Shown: piece by piece, positions 1 through 10,020 of the stretch
How positions within the stretch are numbered: position 1 is the stretch's first letter
Layout: each line of letters opens with the position of its first letter
NCBI GenBank assembly: GCA_026981855.1
Contig: JALSIB010000022.1
Span: forward strand, 1 to 64,000
DNA from: Methylothermaceae bacterium
Lineage (GTDB): Bacteria > Pseudomonadota > Gammaproteobacteria > Methylococcales > Methylothermaceae
DNA length: 64,000 nt
Direction of reading: 5' to 3'
Made by a program: the position numbers and the translations under genes
Notes under the pieces: model-generated
The model's database searches: none
Seen by the model: the letters and a program-made list of their open reading frames with translations, nothing else
What the model was told of the DNA's origin: nothing

Positions 1-2
1 TC

Positions 3-104
3 TTTTACCACTGGTGGCGGCGACACCCCGCTCCTGGCATCACTGACCCTCCCATTGACGACCTTTTCAACGAATCCGGTGGCTTGTTGGCGGGAATCAG
101 GTGA
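3..104 (+). CDS. Possible 3' end of an unidentified gene (partial)
   Basis: A frame open from the window edge ends at a TGA at 102-104 and would encode a tail of about 33 residues ending DLFNESGGLLAGIR. It converges with the dprA-like gene and overlaps its end by a few bases. No family can be recognised from so short a piece, and it may be chance; the sequence left of the window decides. Confidence 0.2.
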   Translation, partial: FYHWWRRHPAPGITDPPIDDLFNESGGLLAGIR

Positions 105-1044
105 AAAAATGGGGAGACGCCAGTGAAAACAACGCCTTGAAATCTACCTCTCTGATGTTCTCCGGTATCCACTCTGCACCAGCCTCGACGATCGCGGCAT
201 TCCCTGACTCCCCATCACTCGTCCGTTTAACCCATAGCGGTATCCATTGTTTTCTGATATTTTCCGTGGCGCCACTCCAGGTACCACCCTTTTTGCCCGA
301 GTGAACCACGACAGCGGCATCCGAAAGGCAATAGATGTACTTGTTTCGCTGCATGGCATTGCCCGCATTGAACCCGGCCTCGGGATAGAACGGCGACACC
401 AGCACGAGATTGTTCGCCATCAGGTATTTGCGGTACTTCGCACTTGAGCAGGTCCGCAGCAGACTGTCAGCCAGCACGCCGATGACGGTACCCTCGGCTT
501 CGAGGGCCCCGAGCATCGAAGCCTCGTCCACGCCTCTTGCACCACCCGAAACGATCGAATATCCGTTACTTGCCGCCAATTCCCCCAGCCCACGGCTGTA
601 GGCGAGATCCTGTTTCGTTGCATTACGGGATCCGATCACCGCCAAACCTCCACCATTGAGCAGAGCCTTCTTGCCGCAGCCAAACAACAAGGCGGGGGAG
701 TCCGTCCTGAGTCGTTTTTTCAAGCGCACCGGATAGTCGGGATCGGATCGTGTCATGACCCACAAACCCGCGCGCAACCACTTCTCCATCGCCAGTGCCA
801 GGGCCGAACCACGATTCAGCAGGCCCTCAACGCGATCCAGCGTAATAGTCTTGTCCGACCAGTCATTGAGGAGTTCATCCAGACGCCCTGTCATCAACTG
901 TTCAGGTGTCAGCGATCGTTCATGCAACCATAGCGCAAAACGCCCCCACTCCTTCGGCGTCAACGGCTTGACCGCTCCCTTTTGCGCCTTGGAAAAATGC
1001 GCGGTCAACAGCAACACGGCTTGTGTATGGGGTGATACCAACAT
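97..1044 (-). CDS. DprA/Smf-like nucleotide-binding protein
   Basis: A 315-residue protein of the DprA/Smf (SLOG-type Rossmann) family. The nucleotide-binding hallmarks are GSRN at residues 138-141 and SGGARGVD at 166-173, followed by a GGTWSGA segment near residue 250. The N-terminal 130 residues are helical and not clearly a SAM domain, and there is no C-terminal DprA winged helix. Classical DprA loads RecA on incoming single strands. Here the ATG directly follows the TGA of the upstream RecQ-phosphoribosyltransferase gene (TGA-ATG, no spacer), with GGAGA just upstream, so the two are translationally coupled. That pairing resembles the ShosA (DprA-like)/ShosT (phosphoribosyltransferase) anti-phage toxin-antitoxin pair more than a competence locus. 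The family is secure; the defence role is inferred. Confidence 0.85.
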   Translation of the reverse strand: MLVSPHTQAVLLLTAHFSKAQKGAVKPLTPKEWGRFALWLHERSLTPEQLMTGRLDELLNDWSDKTITLDRVEGLLNRGSALALAMEKWLRAGLWVMTRSDPDYPVRLKKRLRTDSPALLFGCGKKALLNGGGLAVIGSRNATKQDLAYSRGLGELAASNGYSIVSGGARGVDEASMLGALEAEGTVIGVLADSLLRTCSSAKYRKYLMANNLVLVSPFYPEAGFNAGNAMQRNKYIYCLSDAAVVVHSGKKGGTWSGATENIRKQWIPLWVKRTSDGESGNAAIVEAGAEWIPENIREVDFKALFSLASPHFFT

Positions 1045-3141
1045 TCAGTCTCCCGTACTCGTCGAGGCCAGGGCAACCGGGTAAACCACGCCGCTTCCCG
1101 CCTGCCGCAGCAAGGCAGCAAGCACAGTCACCGTCCATCCGGAATCGATAACATCATCCACCAGTAGCACGGGCGCATCAGGAACACTGTCGGAAATTGC
1201 GAATACGCCATCAAGATTTCGACACTGGTGGAAACGGTTCTGCTGGTTCTTCTGTGGTTCGTTGTCGATTATCTTGCGAATGGCATCCACGAAAGGCAAC
1301 CCAAGCCTGGCGGCAAGTCGCCGGGTAAAATCGGGTACCAGCTCCGGATGCCTAAGTGATGGCACGCAAGTCATCCAGCTAGGTGCGGGATCTGGCCGCC
1401 AACGTTGCTCGATCATCTCTGCGACAGCCTCCACTAACTCATCCCGGAAGTGACCGGCATGCTTGTCCTCTGCCACCAGGCCGCCCCATCCGGCATCCCC
1501 CCAGCGGGAGAGTATTCGCCCTTCCGATGCCTGAAGCTCAGGGGGTAGGTTGCCGCGAAAACCATACACTTGGAACGCCCCGGTAGCTACCTGCTTTTTC
1601 GGCTTGAAGGGCATCTCCGCATGCCTGAGAAACTGAGCGGCAGCAATCACCAAGGGTCGATCCACATTCGTGTCGACAACCGGCTTACCCAGGCAAACCG
1701 CGCACCGGCCGCAGTCCTCGGTTGCCGGATCATCCAAGGCATTCCGCAGATAAGCCATGAGGCAACGCTTGCTGTCGATGTAATCCTGCATCTCCTGCCA
1801 TTCGAGCTCCCGTTGCCGGGTCAGGCGTTCGATATGCTCGTGATCCATGCTGAATGGGACGGGTGTCCGGCGCCATTGGCTACCCTGTTTGATGACGGGT
1901 GCCGGGTTCTCCACACTGAGGATCTTCAACACCTTGTCTATCTGTCCACGCCTGAGATTGAGGTATCGTTCAATCTGAGGGACGCTCAACCCGTCATGGT
2001 CTGTCAACGTCTCCAGAATTGCATTCACGTCGCGCTCGTCGGGAAAGGCGCTGCGTCGGAAGTATTCGTGGATATCCTTGTCCTCCCTGCCTGAAAGAAG
2101 CACTCCGTATGCTTTTTCAATCGCCCGCCCAGCCCGGCCCACCTGTTGGTAATAGGCCACCACAGAACCGGCCGCCTGGTAATGAATGACAAACCCCAAA
2201 TCCGGCTTGTCGTAACCCATGCCCAATGCCGTGGTCGCGACCAGCGCTTTTATCTCATTTCTGAGTAGCAGGTCTTCAAGGTGTTGCCGATACTGGTTGC
2301 TGTCCTCAAAATCTTCATGCTCGACACCGTTGTAATAGGCCCTCGCCACAATCCCCTGTTGATTCAGCCAGGCCGCCACCTGTTTGGCATCACGCTTGGT
2401 GAGCACATAGACGATACCGGTACCAGGCAGTTCTGGAATATGTCGTGCCAGCCAGGCGAGCCGCGATGCTTGATCAGGCAATCGCAGTGTTTGTAGGACC
2501 AGACTGTCCCGCACCAGCGGCCCGCGTTGAATCTCGATATTTCCAAGTTGCGTCTGAACATCGTCTATAACCCGGTTGTTGGCGGTTGCCGTCGTACCGA
2601 GCACGGGCATATTCGGCGGCATCTGGCGTAACACATTGATCAAGCGCCGATAATCTGGACGAAAATCATGACCCCAATCCGAGATACAGTGGACCTCATC
2701 CACAACCAGCAGCCCGATGCGATCCGCCACAGGCAGCAGAACTTCTGCCACGAATGACTCGTTGGACAAGCGCTCTGGAGAAATCAGGATGGCATCGACC
2801 TGATCGGCCAACATTGCCTGCTGGATCTGGGGCCAATTGTCCTGATTGGTAGAATTGATGGTTTCCGCCCGAAGGCCGAGCCGGTGGGCAGCCTCTATCT
2901 GGTTACGCATCAGCGCCAATAGCGGTGAAACGATCACTGTCGGCCCTGCGCCACGGTCACGTAAGATACGCGTACTGATAAAGTACACCGAACTTTTGCC
3001 CCAGCCTGTGCGCTGTACTACCATCAGTTTTTGGCGGTGATTGACCAGCGCATCGATGGCTTCCCATTGACCATCGCGAAACTGGACGAATGGATTACCA
3101 ACCGCCAACTGCAACAAAGATTCTGCCTCGTATTTTTCCAT
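1045..3141 (-). CDS. RecQ-family helicase fused to a C-terminal phosphoribosyltransferase domain
   Basis: A 698-residue superfamily 2 helicase. Motif I is QRTGWGKS (43-50), where RecQ usually has PTGGGKS. Motif II is VDEVH, continuing into CISDWGHDFRPDY (147-164), and motif VI is QQVGRAGR (332-339). The RecQ zinc module is intact with Cys460, 477, 480 and 483. After it there is no ordinary RecQ-Ct/HRDC end. Instead about 200 residues finish with the PRPP-loop signature VLLVDDVIDSGWT (658-670), typical of type I phosphoribosyltransferases. It therefore joins 3'-5' unwinding to a PRTase fold. The dprA-like gene follows with no gap. The promoter must lie in or beside the IS1380 remnant upstream. 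The start ATG lacks a clear Shine-Dalgarno sequence. Fold assignments are strong; biological role is open (defence, DNA uptake or repair). Confidence 0.88.
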   Translation of the reverse strand: MEKYEAESLLQLAVGNPFVQFRDGQWEAIDALVNHRQKLMVVQRTGWGKSSVYFISTRILRDRGAGPTVIVSPLLALMRNQIEAAHRLGLRAETINSTNQDNWPQIQQAMLADQVDAILISPERLSNESFVAEVLLPVADRIGLLVVDEVHCISDWGHDFRPDYRRLINVLRQMPPNMPVLGTTATANNRVIDDVQTQLGNIEIQRGPLVRDSLVLQTLRLPDQASRLAWLARHIPELPGTGIVYVLTKRDAKQVAAWLNQQGIVARAYYNGVEHEDFEDSNQYRQHLEDLLLRNEIKALVATTALGMGYDKPDLGFVIHYQAAGSVVAYYQQVGRAGRAIEKAYGVLLSGREDKDIHEYFRRSAFPDERDVNAILETLTDHDGLSVPQIERYLNLRRGQIDKVLKILSVENPAPVIKQGSQWRRTPVPFSMDHEHIERLTRQRELEWQEMQDYIDSKRCLMAYLRNALDDPATEDCGRCAVCLGKPVVDTNVDRPLVIAAAQFLRHAEMPFKPKKQVATGAFQVYGFRGNLPPELQASEGRILSRWGDAGWGGLVAEDKHAGHFRDELVEAVAEMIEQRWRPDPAPSWMTCVPSLRHPELVPDFTRRLAARLGLPFVDAIRKIIDNEPQKNQQNRFHQCRNLDGVFAISDSVPDAPVLLVDDVIDSGWTVTVLAALLRQAGSGVVYPVALASTSTGD

Positions 3142-3145
3142 ATTT

Positions 3146-3457
3146 TCAGGGGATGTGGATTGATTGCTCCCTATGGCACTTGTTCACTGACCCACAACAC
3201 AAACCATACAAGTGCTGGGCCGCCATTGTCTCCAAAGAATGAGTGGTCCGGCTCGGATCACGCTGGTCCTGCAACGCCTCGGCCGCCGCCCGGTTCAGTC
3301 CGCTCTTGCCATCCACCTGACGCAGTAACAGCGCCCCGCCATCCGAACCAATGGTGCCACAGGTAAAATCCGCCTCGATCACCCGGCGGCCAACACGCCC
3401 AGATTCCATTCGTTCCGCAGTACACTTCGGGATCGGAACAATCTCCCTGGAATTGCT
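3146..3457 (-). pseudogene. IS1380-family transposase, truncated N-terminal remnant
   Basis: The minus strand encodes the start of an IS1380-type transposase: VEADFTxGxIxSDGGALLLRQVD-like core, then NRAAAEALQDQRDPSRTTHSLE and AQHLYGL. This is the family's conserved N-terminal block. It diverges after the YGLCCG position (about base 3190), where the family continues with an EDLNDH-like segment, and stops at 3146. The catalytic DDE region is absent and no intact start is found after the in-frame stop near 3460. It is therefore a dead fragment abutting the recQ-like gene. Terminal inverted repeats were not identified. Confidence 0.7.
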
Positions 3458-5686: not shown

Positions 5687-7459
5687 TTAAGCCAGAGTGA
5701 TCAGGACATCGTCCACGGCCACCGCATCGCCTTCCTTGACCAGTACTGCCTGCACCGTGCCGCCATCCTTCGCCCGGACCTCCGTTTCCATCTTCATCGC
5801 TTCCAGAAGCACCACCACGTCGCCTTCGTTCACCCTGTCTCCCGGGCCGACGTTGACCTTGATGATGGTGCCGGCCATGGGAGCGGTGATCGATACGGCT
5901 CCGGCCGCCGGGGCGGCGGCGCTCACCGGCTGGCTTGCCTGGGTGGTGATTTGGGTCACCGCGCCGCCGGGGGCGACCTCGACGTGATAGACCTTTTGGT
6001 TGACCATGACCGTATAACTGGCGGCCTCCTGATTCGCGGCGGCCGACTGGATGTCCGTCTCGGGGGCTTCATCCTGGGGCTGCGGTTCGAAAGCGGCCGG
6101 ATTTCCCCGCTGCTGAAGAAATTTCCATCCCACCTGGGGAAACAGGGCGTAGATCAGCACATCTTCGATTTCCGCATCGCTCAACCGGACTTGATGTTCC
6201 TGCGCCAGTTTTTCGATTTCCCGGGTCAGTTTCTCCATTTCCGGTTCGAGGAGGTCGGCCGGACGGCAGGTAATCGGTTTTTCTCCCTGGAGCACCCGTT
6301 CCTGTAAATCCTTGTTGACCGGTGCGGGGGTGGCGCCGTATTCTCCCCGCAGCAGCGCCTGGACCTCCTTGGTGATGGTCTTGTAACGCTCGCCGCTGAG
6401 GACGTTGATCACCGCCTGGGTGCCGACGATCTGGGAAGAGGGCGTGACCAGGGGAATGAATCCGAGATCCTCCCTGACCCGGGGAATCTCCTTCAACACA
6501 TCGTCGATCCTGTCGGCGGCGTTCTGTTCCTTGAGCTGATTCTCCATGTTGGTGAGCATGCCGCCCGGCACCTGGGCGACCAGGATGCGACTGTCCACCC
6601 CCTTCAGGGCTCCCTCGAACCTGGCATATTTCTTCCGCACGTCACGGAAATACAGGCCGATTTCTTCCACCAGCTCCAGATCAAGGCCGGTATCGCGCTC
6701 CAGTCCCTGGAAGATGGCAATGAGGGTTTCCGTGGGGCTGTGGCTGTAGGTCATGCTCATGGACGACACGGCCGTGTCCACGTTGTCGATGCCCGCCTCG
6801 GCGGCGGCATACAAAGTGGCCACGCTCAGCCCCGTGGTGGCGTGGCAGTGGAGGTGGACGGGGATGTCCAGGGCTTCTTTCAAGCGGGTCACCAGTTCCG
6901 TGGCCACATGGGGCGTGAGCAGCCCCGCCATGTCCTTGATGCAGACCGAATGGGCGCCCAGGTCTTCGATACAGCGGCCGAGATTGACCCAGGTGTCGAT
7001 CGTGTGAACCGGGCTGGTGGTGTAGGAAAGCGTCCCCTGGGCATGCCTGCCGGCGGCGATGACGGCTTTGACGGCGTGTTCGATGTTGCGCAGGTCGTTG
7101 AGGGCGTCGAAGATGCGGAAAACATCGATGCCGTTTTCCGCCGCCCGTTCCACGAAGGCATCGACCACATCGTCCGCGTAATGGCGGTATCCGAGGAGGT
7201 TCTGGCCCCGCAGCAGCATCTGCAACGGGGTGTGGGGCAACGCCTGTTTGAATGCCCGCAGCCGCTCCCAGGGATCCTCTCCCAGATAGCGGATGCAGGC
7301 GTCGAAAGTGGCCCCTCCCCAGACTTCAAGGGACCAGAAGCCGACCTGATCCAGTTTGGGGCAGATCGGCAACATATCTTCCAGACGGAACCGGGTGGCC
7401 AGGAGGGACTGGTGGGCGTCGCGTAAAACGACCTCGGTGATCCCTAGGGGCTTGGTCAT
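5687..7459 (-). CDS. oadA: Oxaloacetate decarboxylase alpha subunit with biotinyl domain
   Basis: A 590-residue cytosolic carboxyltransferase that moves CO2 from oxaloacetate to biotin. The TIM-barrel catalytic part begins [14 protein letters not shown] (11-24), which carries the metal/substrate residues. It includes the HLHCHATTG metal site (about 202-210) and the KDMAGLL loop (about 176-182). A PYC_OADA helical region follows. An Ala/Pro-rich linker near residues 470-520 leads to a lipoyl-like biotin carrier with the AMKMET motif; Lys556 is the biotinylated residue. The closest alternative is the pyruvate carboxylase B subunit, but the flanking oadB and oadG settle the assignment. AGGAGA lies upstream of the ATG. 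Confidence 0.95.
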
Positions 7460-7494
7460 GATGGGAAATCTCCTGAAAATTGAACGGGGATTGG

Positions 7495-7737
7495 TCAGTT
7501 CGAGCGATCTTCGCGATAGCGATGAATGGCGGCGCCGATGGCGGCGATCAGCTCATCGTCGTCTTGCGGGCGGGCTTTGGGTCCCGCCCCGGCCACCGGC
7601 TGACCCGCTTCCGGGAGGAAGCGTCCTATGGTCCAGGACATCAAGGTTACGGCGACCACCAACATGGCCAGGAACACGAAAACGATTCCCATGCCGATGA
7701 ACATGAGCTCTATACCGCTGCCAAACATTTCGCTCAT
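7495..7737 (-). CDS. oadG: Oxaloacetate decarboxylase gamma subunit
   Basis: An 80-residue protein with one N-terminal transmembrane helix ([20 protein letters not shown]) followed by a charged cytosolic tail rich in Pro, Asp and Arg, the standard OadG layout. Gamma anchors and assembles the alpha and beta subunits and binds zinc through its C-terminal tail. Sequence conservation in the family is low, so position as the first gene before oadA carries much of the weight. The promoter should lie in the 348-base gap shared with divergent ftsH. Confidence 0.88.
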
Positions 7738-8085
7738 TTGTCAAGCCTTTGTTCTGATTGTGTTTTTTCTGAATCCATGGGCGCAAACCAATTAAATTTA
7801 GCATTTTGAAAGAAAAAAATATACAGAACCTTCCGCCATCCCGTCCGACTGACCACCTGTCACTTCTGCCGGAGGAGTCCGTCAGCGGCCGGGGAGGGCC
7901 GCGCCGGGCCTGAATTCACGGACGAATTTGGTCCGGCGGACGCTTCTCTGATACCGAAAAAGCAAACCGATGGATGTTGAGCCCGCCCGATCGGGATTGC
8001 CCGGCCGCGCGCCATCGCTTGAACAATCGGCGGTCGAACCCCACATAGTCAACCCGAAGTGGGAAAATGGTGGAGGTCAGGAACC
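7738..8085. promoter_or_regulatory. Divergent intergenic region between oadG and ftsH
   Basis: 348 bases with no convincing gene. It must carry the promoters of oadGAB-crcB-DUF190 (minus) and ftsH (plus). It is A/T-rich near 7795-7825 and contains one copy of the dispersed element listed at 7853-7879. No sigma-54-type motif or riboswitch could be made out. Confidence 0.5.
7853..7879 (-). repeat. Dispersed repeat, copy 1
   Basis: On the minus strand this contains CAGAAGTGACAGGTGGT, which recurs as TAGAAGTGACAGGTGGT at 37146-37172. Both copies lie 70-130 bases upstream of a minus-strand operon and are followed by a GCGGAAG block and an A/T-rich tract. It could be a shared regulatory site or debris of a mobile element; two copies cannot decide. 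Confidence 0.4.
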
Positions 8086-10020
8086 ATGAGACATTCCCGT
8101 AAAGATTCTCCGCAAGACGGTGGGTTTTCCGATATCCTGAACTCACTCTGGCAACAGCTGAAAGGATGGCAAGGTATGCAGAAGAAACCGGAAATCGAAA
8201 TCAACAAACCCGGAAAAGTGCCTTTCTGGCAGGATCCCCGTTACAACTGGATCGCCTATTTCCTGTTGGCGATGCTGATTCTTTCCCTCTGGCAGAACTA
8301 TGCCGAGGTTCGCCAGCTCGAGATTCCCTATAACCAGTTTCTGGAATATGTGGAACAGGGCAAGGTGGAAAAAGTGGTGGTCGAGGAAAAGAAGATCACC
8401 GGTTTCCTCAAGCCTGAAACGCCGGAGGCCAAGCCTCAGCCTTTCGTCACCATCCCCTTGTGGGATGACAAGTTGGCCGAGAAACTCAAACAACATGGGG
8501 TGGAATTCATCGTCCGGCCGCAGACGACCAACTGGTTGGCCTATTTCTTCTTCAGTTGGGTGCTTCCCCTGGCGCTGCTGTTCTGGTTCTGGAGCTGGAT
8601 GGCCAGGCGCATGGCGGGCGGGCGCGGTATTCTCAGTCTGGGCAAGCGGGCCAAGATCTATGCCGAATCCGATGTGAAAGTGCATTTCGACGACGTGGCC
8701 GGTTGCGAGGAAGCCAAGCAGGAGCTCAAGGAAGTGGTCGAATTTCTCAAGGATCCGAAGAAGATCCAGAGCCTGGGGGGGCGGCCACCGAAGGGCGTGC
8801 TGCTGGTGGGGCCGCCGGGTACCGGCAAGACTTTGCTGGCCAGGGCGGTCGCCGGAGAGGCGGGGGTGCCTTTCTTCAGCATCACCGGTTCCGAATTTAT
8901 CGAGATGTTCGTCGGCGTGGGGGCCGCCCGGGTGCGGGATTTGTTCGAGCAGGCCAGGCAGAAGGCCCCCTGCATCATCTTCATCGACGAGATCGACGCC
9001 ATCGGCAGAACCCGCGGCGCGTCGCCGGTCAGCCACGAGGAGCGCGAACAGACCCTCAATCAGCTGCTGGCGGAAATGGACGGATTCGATCCCGCTTCCG
9101 GGGTCGTGGTGATGGCGGCCACCAACCGGCCGGAGATTCTCGACAAGGCGTTGCTGCGTCCCGGGCGTTTCGATCGCCAGATCGCGGTGGACAAGCCGGA
9201 TCTTGCCGGCCGTGAAGCGATTCTCAAGATCCATACCCGCAACAAGAAACTGTGCCCCGACGTGGACTTGCATGTGGTGGCGCTGCGTACTCCCGGTTTC
9301 GTCGGCGCCGAGTTGGAGAACGTCTGCAACGAGGCGGCGATCATCGCGGTCCGGCGCAATCACGATTGCATCGCCATGGAAGATTTCGAATCCGCCATCG
9401 ACCGGGTGATCGCCGGGCTGGAACGCAAGACCCGGGCCCTCAGCCCCAAGGAGAAGGAAAGGGTGGCTTATCACGAATCCGGCCACACCATCGTGGCCGA
9501 GATCGTTCCCACCGGTGAGCCCGTGCACAAGGTTTCGATCATTCCCCGGGGCGTCGGTGCGCTGGGTTATACCCTGCAACTGCCGGTGGAGGAAAAATTC
9601 CTCGCCACCGAGGATGAATTGAAGGATCAGCTGGCGATCCTGCTGGGAGGCCGCACCGCCGAGGAGATCGTCTATGGGGACGTTTCCACCGGCGCCCAGA
9701 ACGACCTGGAAAAAGCCAGCGAGATCGCCCGCAACATGGTCTGTTACCTGGGTATGAGTTCGAAACTGGGGCCTGGAACCTGGGGGCAGCGTCAGCAGTT
9801 GGCCTATCTGGAGGGCGGGGTGCAGGAATTCAAGAACTACAGCGAGGAAACCGCCCGCCTGATCGACATGGAGGTGCGCGAACTTCTTGACGAAGCCCAT
9901 CGCCGGGCGCGGGAGATTCTCGAAACCCGGCGCGACATCCTCGACAGCCTGGCCAAGGCCCTGGAGGAAAAGGAAGTGCTGAGCGGCGAGGAAGTCAAGG
10001 ACATTCTCCGCCGGCCATGA
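8086..10020 (+). CDS. ftsH: ATP-dependent zinc metalloprotease FtsH
   Basis: A 644-residue membrane-anchored AAA+ protease that degrades misfolded membrane and some soluble proteins. There are two transmembrane helices (about 60-80 and 160-180) around a small periplasmic domain. The AAA module has Walker A GPPGTGKT (242-249), Walker [10 protein letters not shown], and an SRH ending RPGRFDRQI. The zinc site is HESGH (463-467; most FtsH have HEAGH), with the third ligand Asp in the [10 protein letters not shown] segment. I start at the ATG at 8086, which has GGAGG about 9 bases upstream; a GTG at 8059 in frame has none. It is transcribed alone, with a GC hairpin just after the stop. The unusual N-terminal extension and the Ser in the zinc motif suggest a secondary paralogue rather than the housekeeping copy. 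Confidence 0.93.

Follow-up and report, generated by a model that had tools for sequence, protein, structure and literature searches.

The window analysed here, a 64,000-nucleotide stretch of a Methylothermaceae bacterium contig, carries near its start a gene for a RecQ-type helicase with a C-terminal phosphoribosyltransferase (PRTase) domain, followed by a DprA-like gene. This raises the question of whether the pair is a new defence module, a member of a known system or part of the machinery for DNA repair and uptake, and whether it could still function. The original prediction regarded the arrangement as new and modelled it on ShosTA, but the fusion and its DprA-like partner have a family name of their own. 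PADLOC identifies the 698-residue protein as PsyrT (1022.7 bits over residues 3-698, full length) and the 315-residue protein as PsyrA (486 bits, profile positions 1-307 of 398), and these matches uphold the proposal of a toxin-antitoxin or candidate defence module. Since PADLOC names the pair PsyrTA and a literature exists on RqlHI, the helicase-PRTase fusion is already known, and by profile similarity the pair is a member of the PsyrTA family, also named RqlHI, in which a helicase-PRTase toxin is joined by a DprA-like antitoxin. PsyrTA was validated as a toxin-antitoxin pair by Sberro et al. (2013), as cited in PMC8790059, and RqlHI was studied by Russell and Mulvey (2015; PMC4670107). The finding is thereby settled as a known system and need not be pursued as a new one; what the locus adds to the family is modest, namely a natural truncation of the antitoxin, an accessory insertion and the nesting of relatives in BREX and type I restriction operons.

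Both genes lie on the minus strand, psyrT (rqlH) at 1045-3141 and psyrA (rqlI) at 97-1044, and the psyrT stop codon is immediately followed by the ATG of psyrA, an operon-like gap of 0 bp. The pairing is general: in essentially all bacterial relatives with approximately 50% identity or more, on contigs reaching far enough, PsyrA is encoded within 60 bp 3′ of PsyrT. The fusion expected from the open reading frame was confirmed by Pfam, AlphaFold and Foldseek. PsyrT contains the Pfam domains DEAD and Helicase_C, and its helicase core (residues ~20-345; 2107-3084, minus strand) retains intact motifs (Walker A K49 in GWGKS, D148 in DEVH and QVGRAGR at 333) and is matched over residues 10-342 by the RecQ structure 1oyw in the PDB. 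Identity as a canonical RecQ was rejected (TIGR01389, 264.4 bits versus a curated cut-off of 640.2). The RecQ zinc-binding cysteines C460, C477, C480 and C483 (1693-1764, minus strand) coincide with a weak match to RecQ_Zn_bind (residues 442-484; 23.8 bits, slightly below the cut-off of 25). The PRTase domain (residues 500-698; 1048-1644, minus strand) also falls slightly below the Pfam cut-off (Pribosyltran, 25.8 versus 26.3 bits), and this piece scores 249 bits against the PADLOC PsyrT profile. An AlphaFold model of residues 500-698 (pLDDT 84, pTM 0.85, built from 11 sequences) matched the type I PRTases APRT, PurF and ComF in a Foldseek search of the PDB, with a top query-normalised TM among the matches listed of 0.55 (Helicobacter pylori ComF, 7p0h). 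The PRTase assignment therefore stands despite the sub-threshold Pfam score. The PRPP loop, VDDVIDSG, occupies residues 661-668 and includes D663; this residue, K49 and D148, all mutated in studies of E. coli RqlH, carry identical numbers in the window protein.

The DprA-like gene does follow without a spacer, as originally described, but it is not intact, its tail being read from an insertion sequence (IS). The 315-residue product has a SLOG-type Rossmann domain and scores 134.9 bits against DNA_processg_A (Pfam); a canonical DprA identity was rejected (TIGR00732, 96.2 bits versus a curated cut-off of 191). Residues 1-307 are native, whereas the last eight codons (308-315) and the stop codon derive from the IS. 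Because the insertion interrupts psyrA, the protein lacks the C-terminal helix-turn-helix (HTH, profile positions 308-398), and positions 309-396 are instead encoded at the beginning of another contig, C19. The first base of the window is also that of its contig, C22, and falls inside the IS, so that the sequence past the 3′ end of psyrA sits on a different contig. The left end of the IS (CTGGCGTCTCCCC..., 1-123, minus strand) terminates C22 and is followed by a 10-bp target-site duplication, GTTGTTTTCA (124-133, minus strand), whose second copy is on C19. There the element ends in ...GGGGAGACACTAG; the two ends form imperfect inverted repeats, each flanked by GTTGTTTTCA. Since the ~120-bp ends occur in 34-35 places, mostly at contig edges (for the left end, 34 complete copies of its outermost 118 bp; for the right end, 35 places), the element is a high-copy IS at which the assembly also breaks. 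A single IS, with approximately 35 copies and nearly identical ends, occupies most contig edges of this genome. On contig C50 (~6500-8650; L002, L048), a RecQ/DpdF-like helicase reading frame begins with the IS-end residues MKKWGDAS...; this second defence-type helicase gene thus appears to have been disrupted by the same IS or to have received a copy at its start.

Loss of the HTH probably leaves the pair functional. In E. coli, RqlI 1-320, from which the HTH has been removed, still rescues cells from RqlH, and truncations at 250 or 320 rescue partly or fully (PMC4670107); by analogy, PsyrA 1-307 should still neutralise PsyrT. HTH-less PsyrA proteins also occur naturally in relatives (L030, 334 residues; L028, 327 residues). 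psyrT is intact and under purifying selection (dN/dS 0.05-0.10 versus relatives), as is the native part of psyrA (residues 1-307, 0.06-0.07), most of the history recorded in these values being older than the IS insertion. Such a natural truncation, found together with an intact psyrT, leads to the prediction that neutralisation can do without the HTH in a second lineage as well. The IS may have changed the control of the operon.

PRTase-dependent toxicity and physical interaction of the partners, like the dispensability of the HTH, are properties established in E. coli RqlHI. There, toxicity and SOS induction by RqlH require the PRTase residue D663, and RqlI binds the PRTase region of RqlH and neutralises its toxicity (PMC4670107), so that the proposal that the PRTase is the toxic part finds support by analogy. 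The helicase mutations K49A and D148A made viability and SOS induction worse, not better (PMC4670107); since mutating the helicase renders the PRTase more harmful, the RqlH helicase at least restrains the toxin. By extension to the window pair, PsyrA would bind the PRTase region of PsyrT and keep the toxin off. The helicase would most likely engage aberrant DNA, whether phage DNA that is broken or being replicated, or damaged host DNA, upon which the hold of PsyrA on the PRTase would be released. The freed PRTase would then act near DNA, through a presumed chemistry on a presumed target, and growth would halt with SOS induction. Anti-phage databases list PsyrTA as a defence system, and a benefit against phage, in the window copy as elsewhere, would complete this scheme.

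The surroundings of the pair bear on how it arrived. Directly upstream of psyrT lies a transposase remnant (3146-3409, minus strand), an N-terminal fragment of approximately 70 residues of an IS1380-type DDE enzyme that covers only positions 4-72 of the 435 in DDE_Tnp_1_4; the transposase is indeed dead, as had been supposed. In the congeners G003, G009 and G005 a DUF190 gene is directly followed by the gene that in the window genome (G000) is on C19, whereas in G000 the transposase remnant, psyrT, psyrA and a hydrolase gene lie between these two. Because the DUF190 gene and the C19 gene adjoin in the congeners, C22 and C19 are confirmed as neighbours, and the psyrTA module was inserted between housekeeping genes as an accessory element, in line with the accessory location originally proposed. 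In G005 a PsyrT of 90% identity is encoded on a different contig. In G003 and G009 the hydrolase gene that here adjoins psyrA is found close to recQ, though in a different orientation; replacement of recQ at its locus was rejected, the flanks showing a plain insertion between the DUF190 gene and the next gene.

The distribution of the family is sparse. PsyrT is present at family-level score in approximately 10 of 379 genomes of the class (completeness at least 97%), a count that leaves out three weaker full-length matches, so the pair is not universally conserved; universal conservation beside housekeeping genes would have spoken against a defence module. Within the genus, all four PsyrT-bearing genomes (G000, G004, G005 and G008) lack a canonical RecQ, which is present in five of the remaining six. 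Mutual exclusion as a general rule was nevertheless rejected, there being no class-wide association (RecQ over cut-off absent in 5/10 PsyrT genomes versus 137/379 overall). A phage-borne origin was likewise set aside, as none of the phage records covers 80% of PsyrT. The neighbours of the window copy that were checked, on the C22 side, include no other defence gene.

The suggested search for the fusion in defence contexts was more productive among relatives. These loci were picked by similarity to the window PsyrT, not drawn at random, and we therefore claim no rate of nesting. At L034 (3213-18094), psyrTA lies between brxC and pglX, both assigned by HMM, and a DRT UG5-nitrilase reverse transcriptase is encoded 3′ of pglX. 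It follows brxC at L027 and L029, where the subsequent pglX was assigned by eye, and in a BREX locus on an Acinetobacter plasmid it lies between pglX and a DUF262 gene/pglZ. Taken by locus, BREX-nested copies were observed at L034, L027, L029 and L064, in the brxC-pglX interval or after pglX. On an E. coli plasmid psyrTA lies between hsdS and hsdR, and the same variant occurs on two E. coli chromosomes; it is present in 53 of 5,426 E. coli genomes. Copies nested in type I systems comprise L063, L114 and L115 (hsdM-hsdS-psyrTA-hsdR in E. coli) as well as L022, where a type I restriction gene lies 3′ of the pair, and L035, where hsdM and hsdS lie 5′ of it. A regulator-like gene lies 5′ of psyrT in both L022 and L035, and in L022 the psyrT frame overlaps at its start with a small open reading frame. 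Neighbours at L031 include a type IIG enzyme and HEC-01A- and DruE-like genes, and at L033 a type II methyltransferase is encoded upstream. No obvious defence neighbour was seen at L030, beside a Nostoc plasmid copy or at the common E. coli site between gntU and yhgN. We found no discussion of nesting in BREX or type I operons in the open-access literature searched, although it may have been reported. This nesting is the point most worth following, since it makes the PsyrTA trigger testable in those hosts.

Taken together, we consider it highly probable that the window pair is a PsyrTA-type toxin-antitoxin pair with a toxic PRTase restrained by PsyrA, that it arrived as an accessory insertion and that an IS later cut away the HTH of PsyrA, leaving residues 1-307 that should neutralise. 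A selfish addiction module, kept for its own stability with little or no anti-phage role, is a possible but rather unlikely alternative. Toxin-antitoxin behaviour has been shown for RqlHI/PsyrTA, the solitary Nostoc plasmid copy lies beside parA/parB genes, and the window copy is itself an accessory insertion; moreover, one native-host study, in E. coli NILS69, detected no protection by PsyrTA in its assays, and the strain expressing it showed a growth defect (PMC12409345). The repeated nesting in BREX and type I restriction-modification operons instead points to a role in defence. It is not decisive, because a large survey of metagenome-assembled genomes found PsyrTA under-represented in defence islands overall, yet, where it does occur in them, significantly co-localised with other families (PMC10924106). 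A more specific proposal, which we regard as speculative and on balance unlikely, is that psyrTA serves larger DNA-modification defences as a back-up effector, placed between brxC and pglX in BREX or between hsdS and hsdR in type I restriction. Its helicase would respond to DNA intermediates or failures of these systems, and the cell would be killed once they are overcome; the window copy would then be a stand-alone derivative.

It is quite improbable that the window locus is a decaying remnant in which the IS killed the antitoxin and the module is being lost. The IS junction with the lost HTH and the transposase debris upstream of psyrT would fit such a history, but psyrT is intact with a signature of purifying selection (mostly from before the IS), a toxin without its antitoxin would be counter-selected, and both the rescue by truncated RqlI and the natural HTH-less relatives argue against loss of the antitoxin function. 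That the pair serves DNA repair or uptake, handling incoming single-stranded DNA during natural transformation with toxicity as a side effect of imbalance, is very improbable: DprA and ComF are competence proteins, ComF gave the highest query-normalised fold match listed and an analysis from 2017 placed the fusion together with DNA uptake and an SOS-like response (PMC5512222), but because the genome has a separate canonical DprA (261 bits, above cut-off) and a separate ComF/GntX-type PRTase adjoining bioB, psyrTA is unlikely to be mere transformation machinery, the role that the original prediction had set against its own, and the module is sparse, occurs at varied sites, on plasmids and in defence operons, and transformation was undetectable in RqlHI-bearing extraintestinal E. 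coli (PMC4670107).

The PsyrTA-type toxin-antitoxin pair of the window can be placed among known systems by its degree of likeness. With DpdF of the Dpd system it shares the RecQ-like helicase core (NCBIfam DpdF, 141.5 bits); assignment as DpdF was rejected, since the score is far from the cut-off of 550 and no other Dpd protein was identified alongside. RqlH of Mycobacterium smegmatis, in which the protein was first identified, has the same helicase-PRTase architecture, but the RqlI partner is absent in nearly all Gram-positive genomes (PMC4670107), unlike the window pair. ShosTA likewise combines a PRTase toxin with a DprA-like antitoxin, and both the ShosA profile and a PDB structure named DprA-like antitoxin ShosA (9vzo, E = 4e-10) match PsyrA. 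This structure is a possible template for the antitoxin; papers on it or on the mechanism of the PRTase toxin were not found in the open-access literature searched. ShosT, however, has no helicase fusion, whereas the window PRTase is fused to a RecQ-like helicase, and the comparison with ShosT that had been suggested gave only a weak hit (42 residues, E = 2e-4), while the PsyrT profile scores 249 bits. With the ShosA profile (93 bits) a distant second to PsyrA (486 bits), membership of ShosTA was rejected; ShosTA is a relative of the window pair, not its parent family. RqlHI of extraintestinal E. coli (PMC4670107) also couples a helicase-PRTase to a DprA-like partner, with K49, D148 and D663 at the same positions, but its sequence has diverged and its insertion site is different, the common E. 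coli copy lying between gntU and yhgN. Compared with the PsyrTA family profile, the window PsyrA is without positions 308-398, the HTH, but the pair has in common with PsyrTA of Pseudomonas syringae (Sberro et al., 2013) its gene order, spacing and domains, over the full length of PsyrT and in PsyrA up to the IS.
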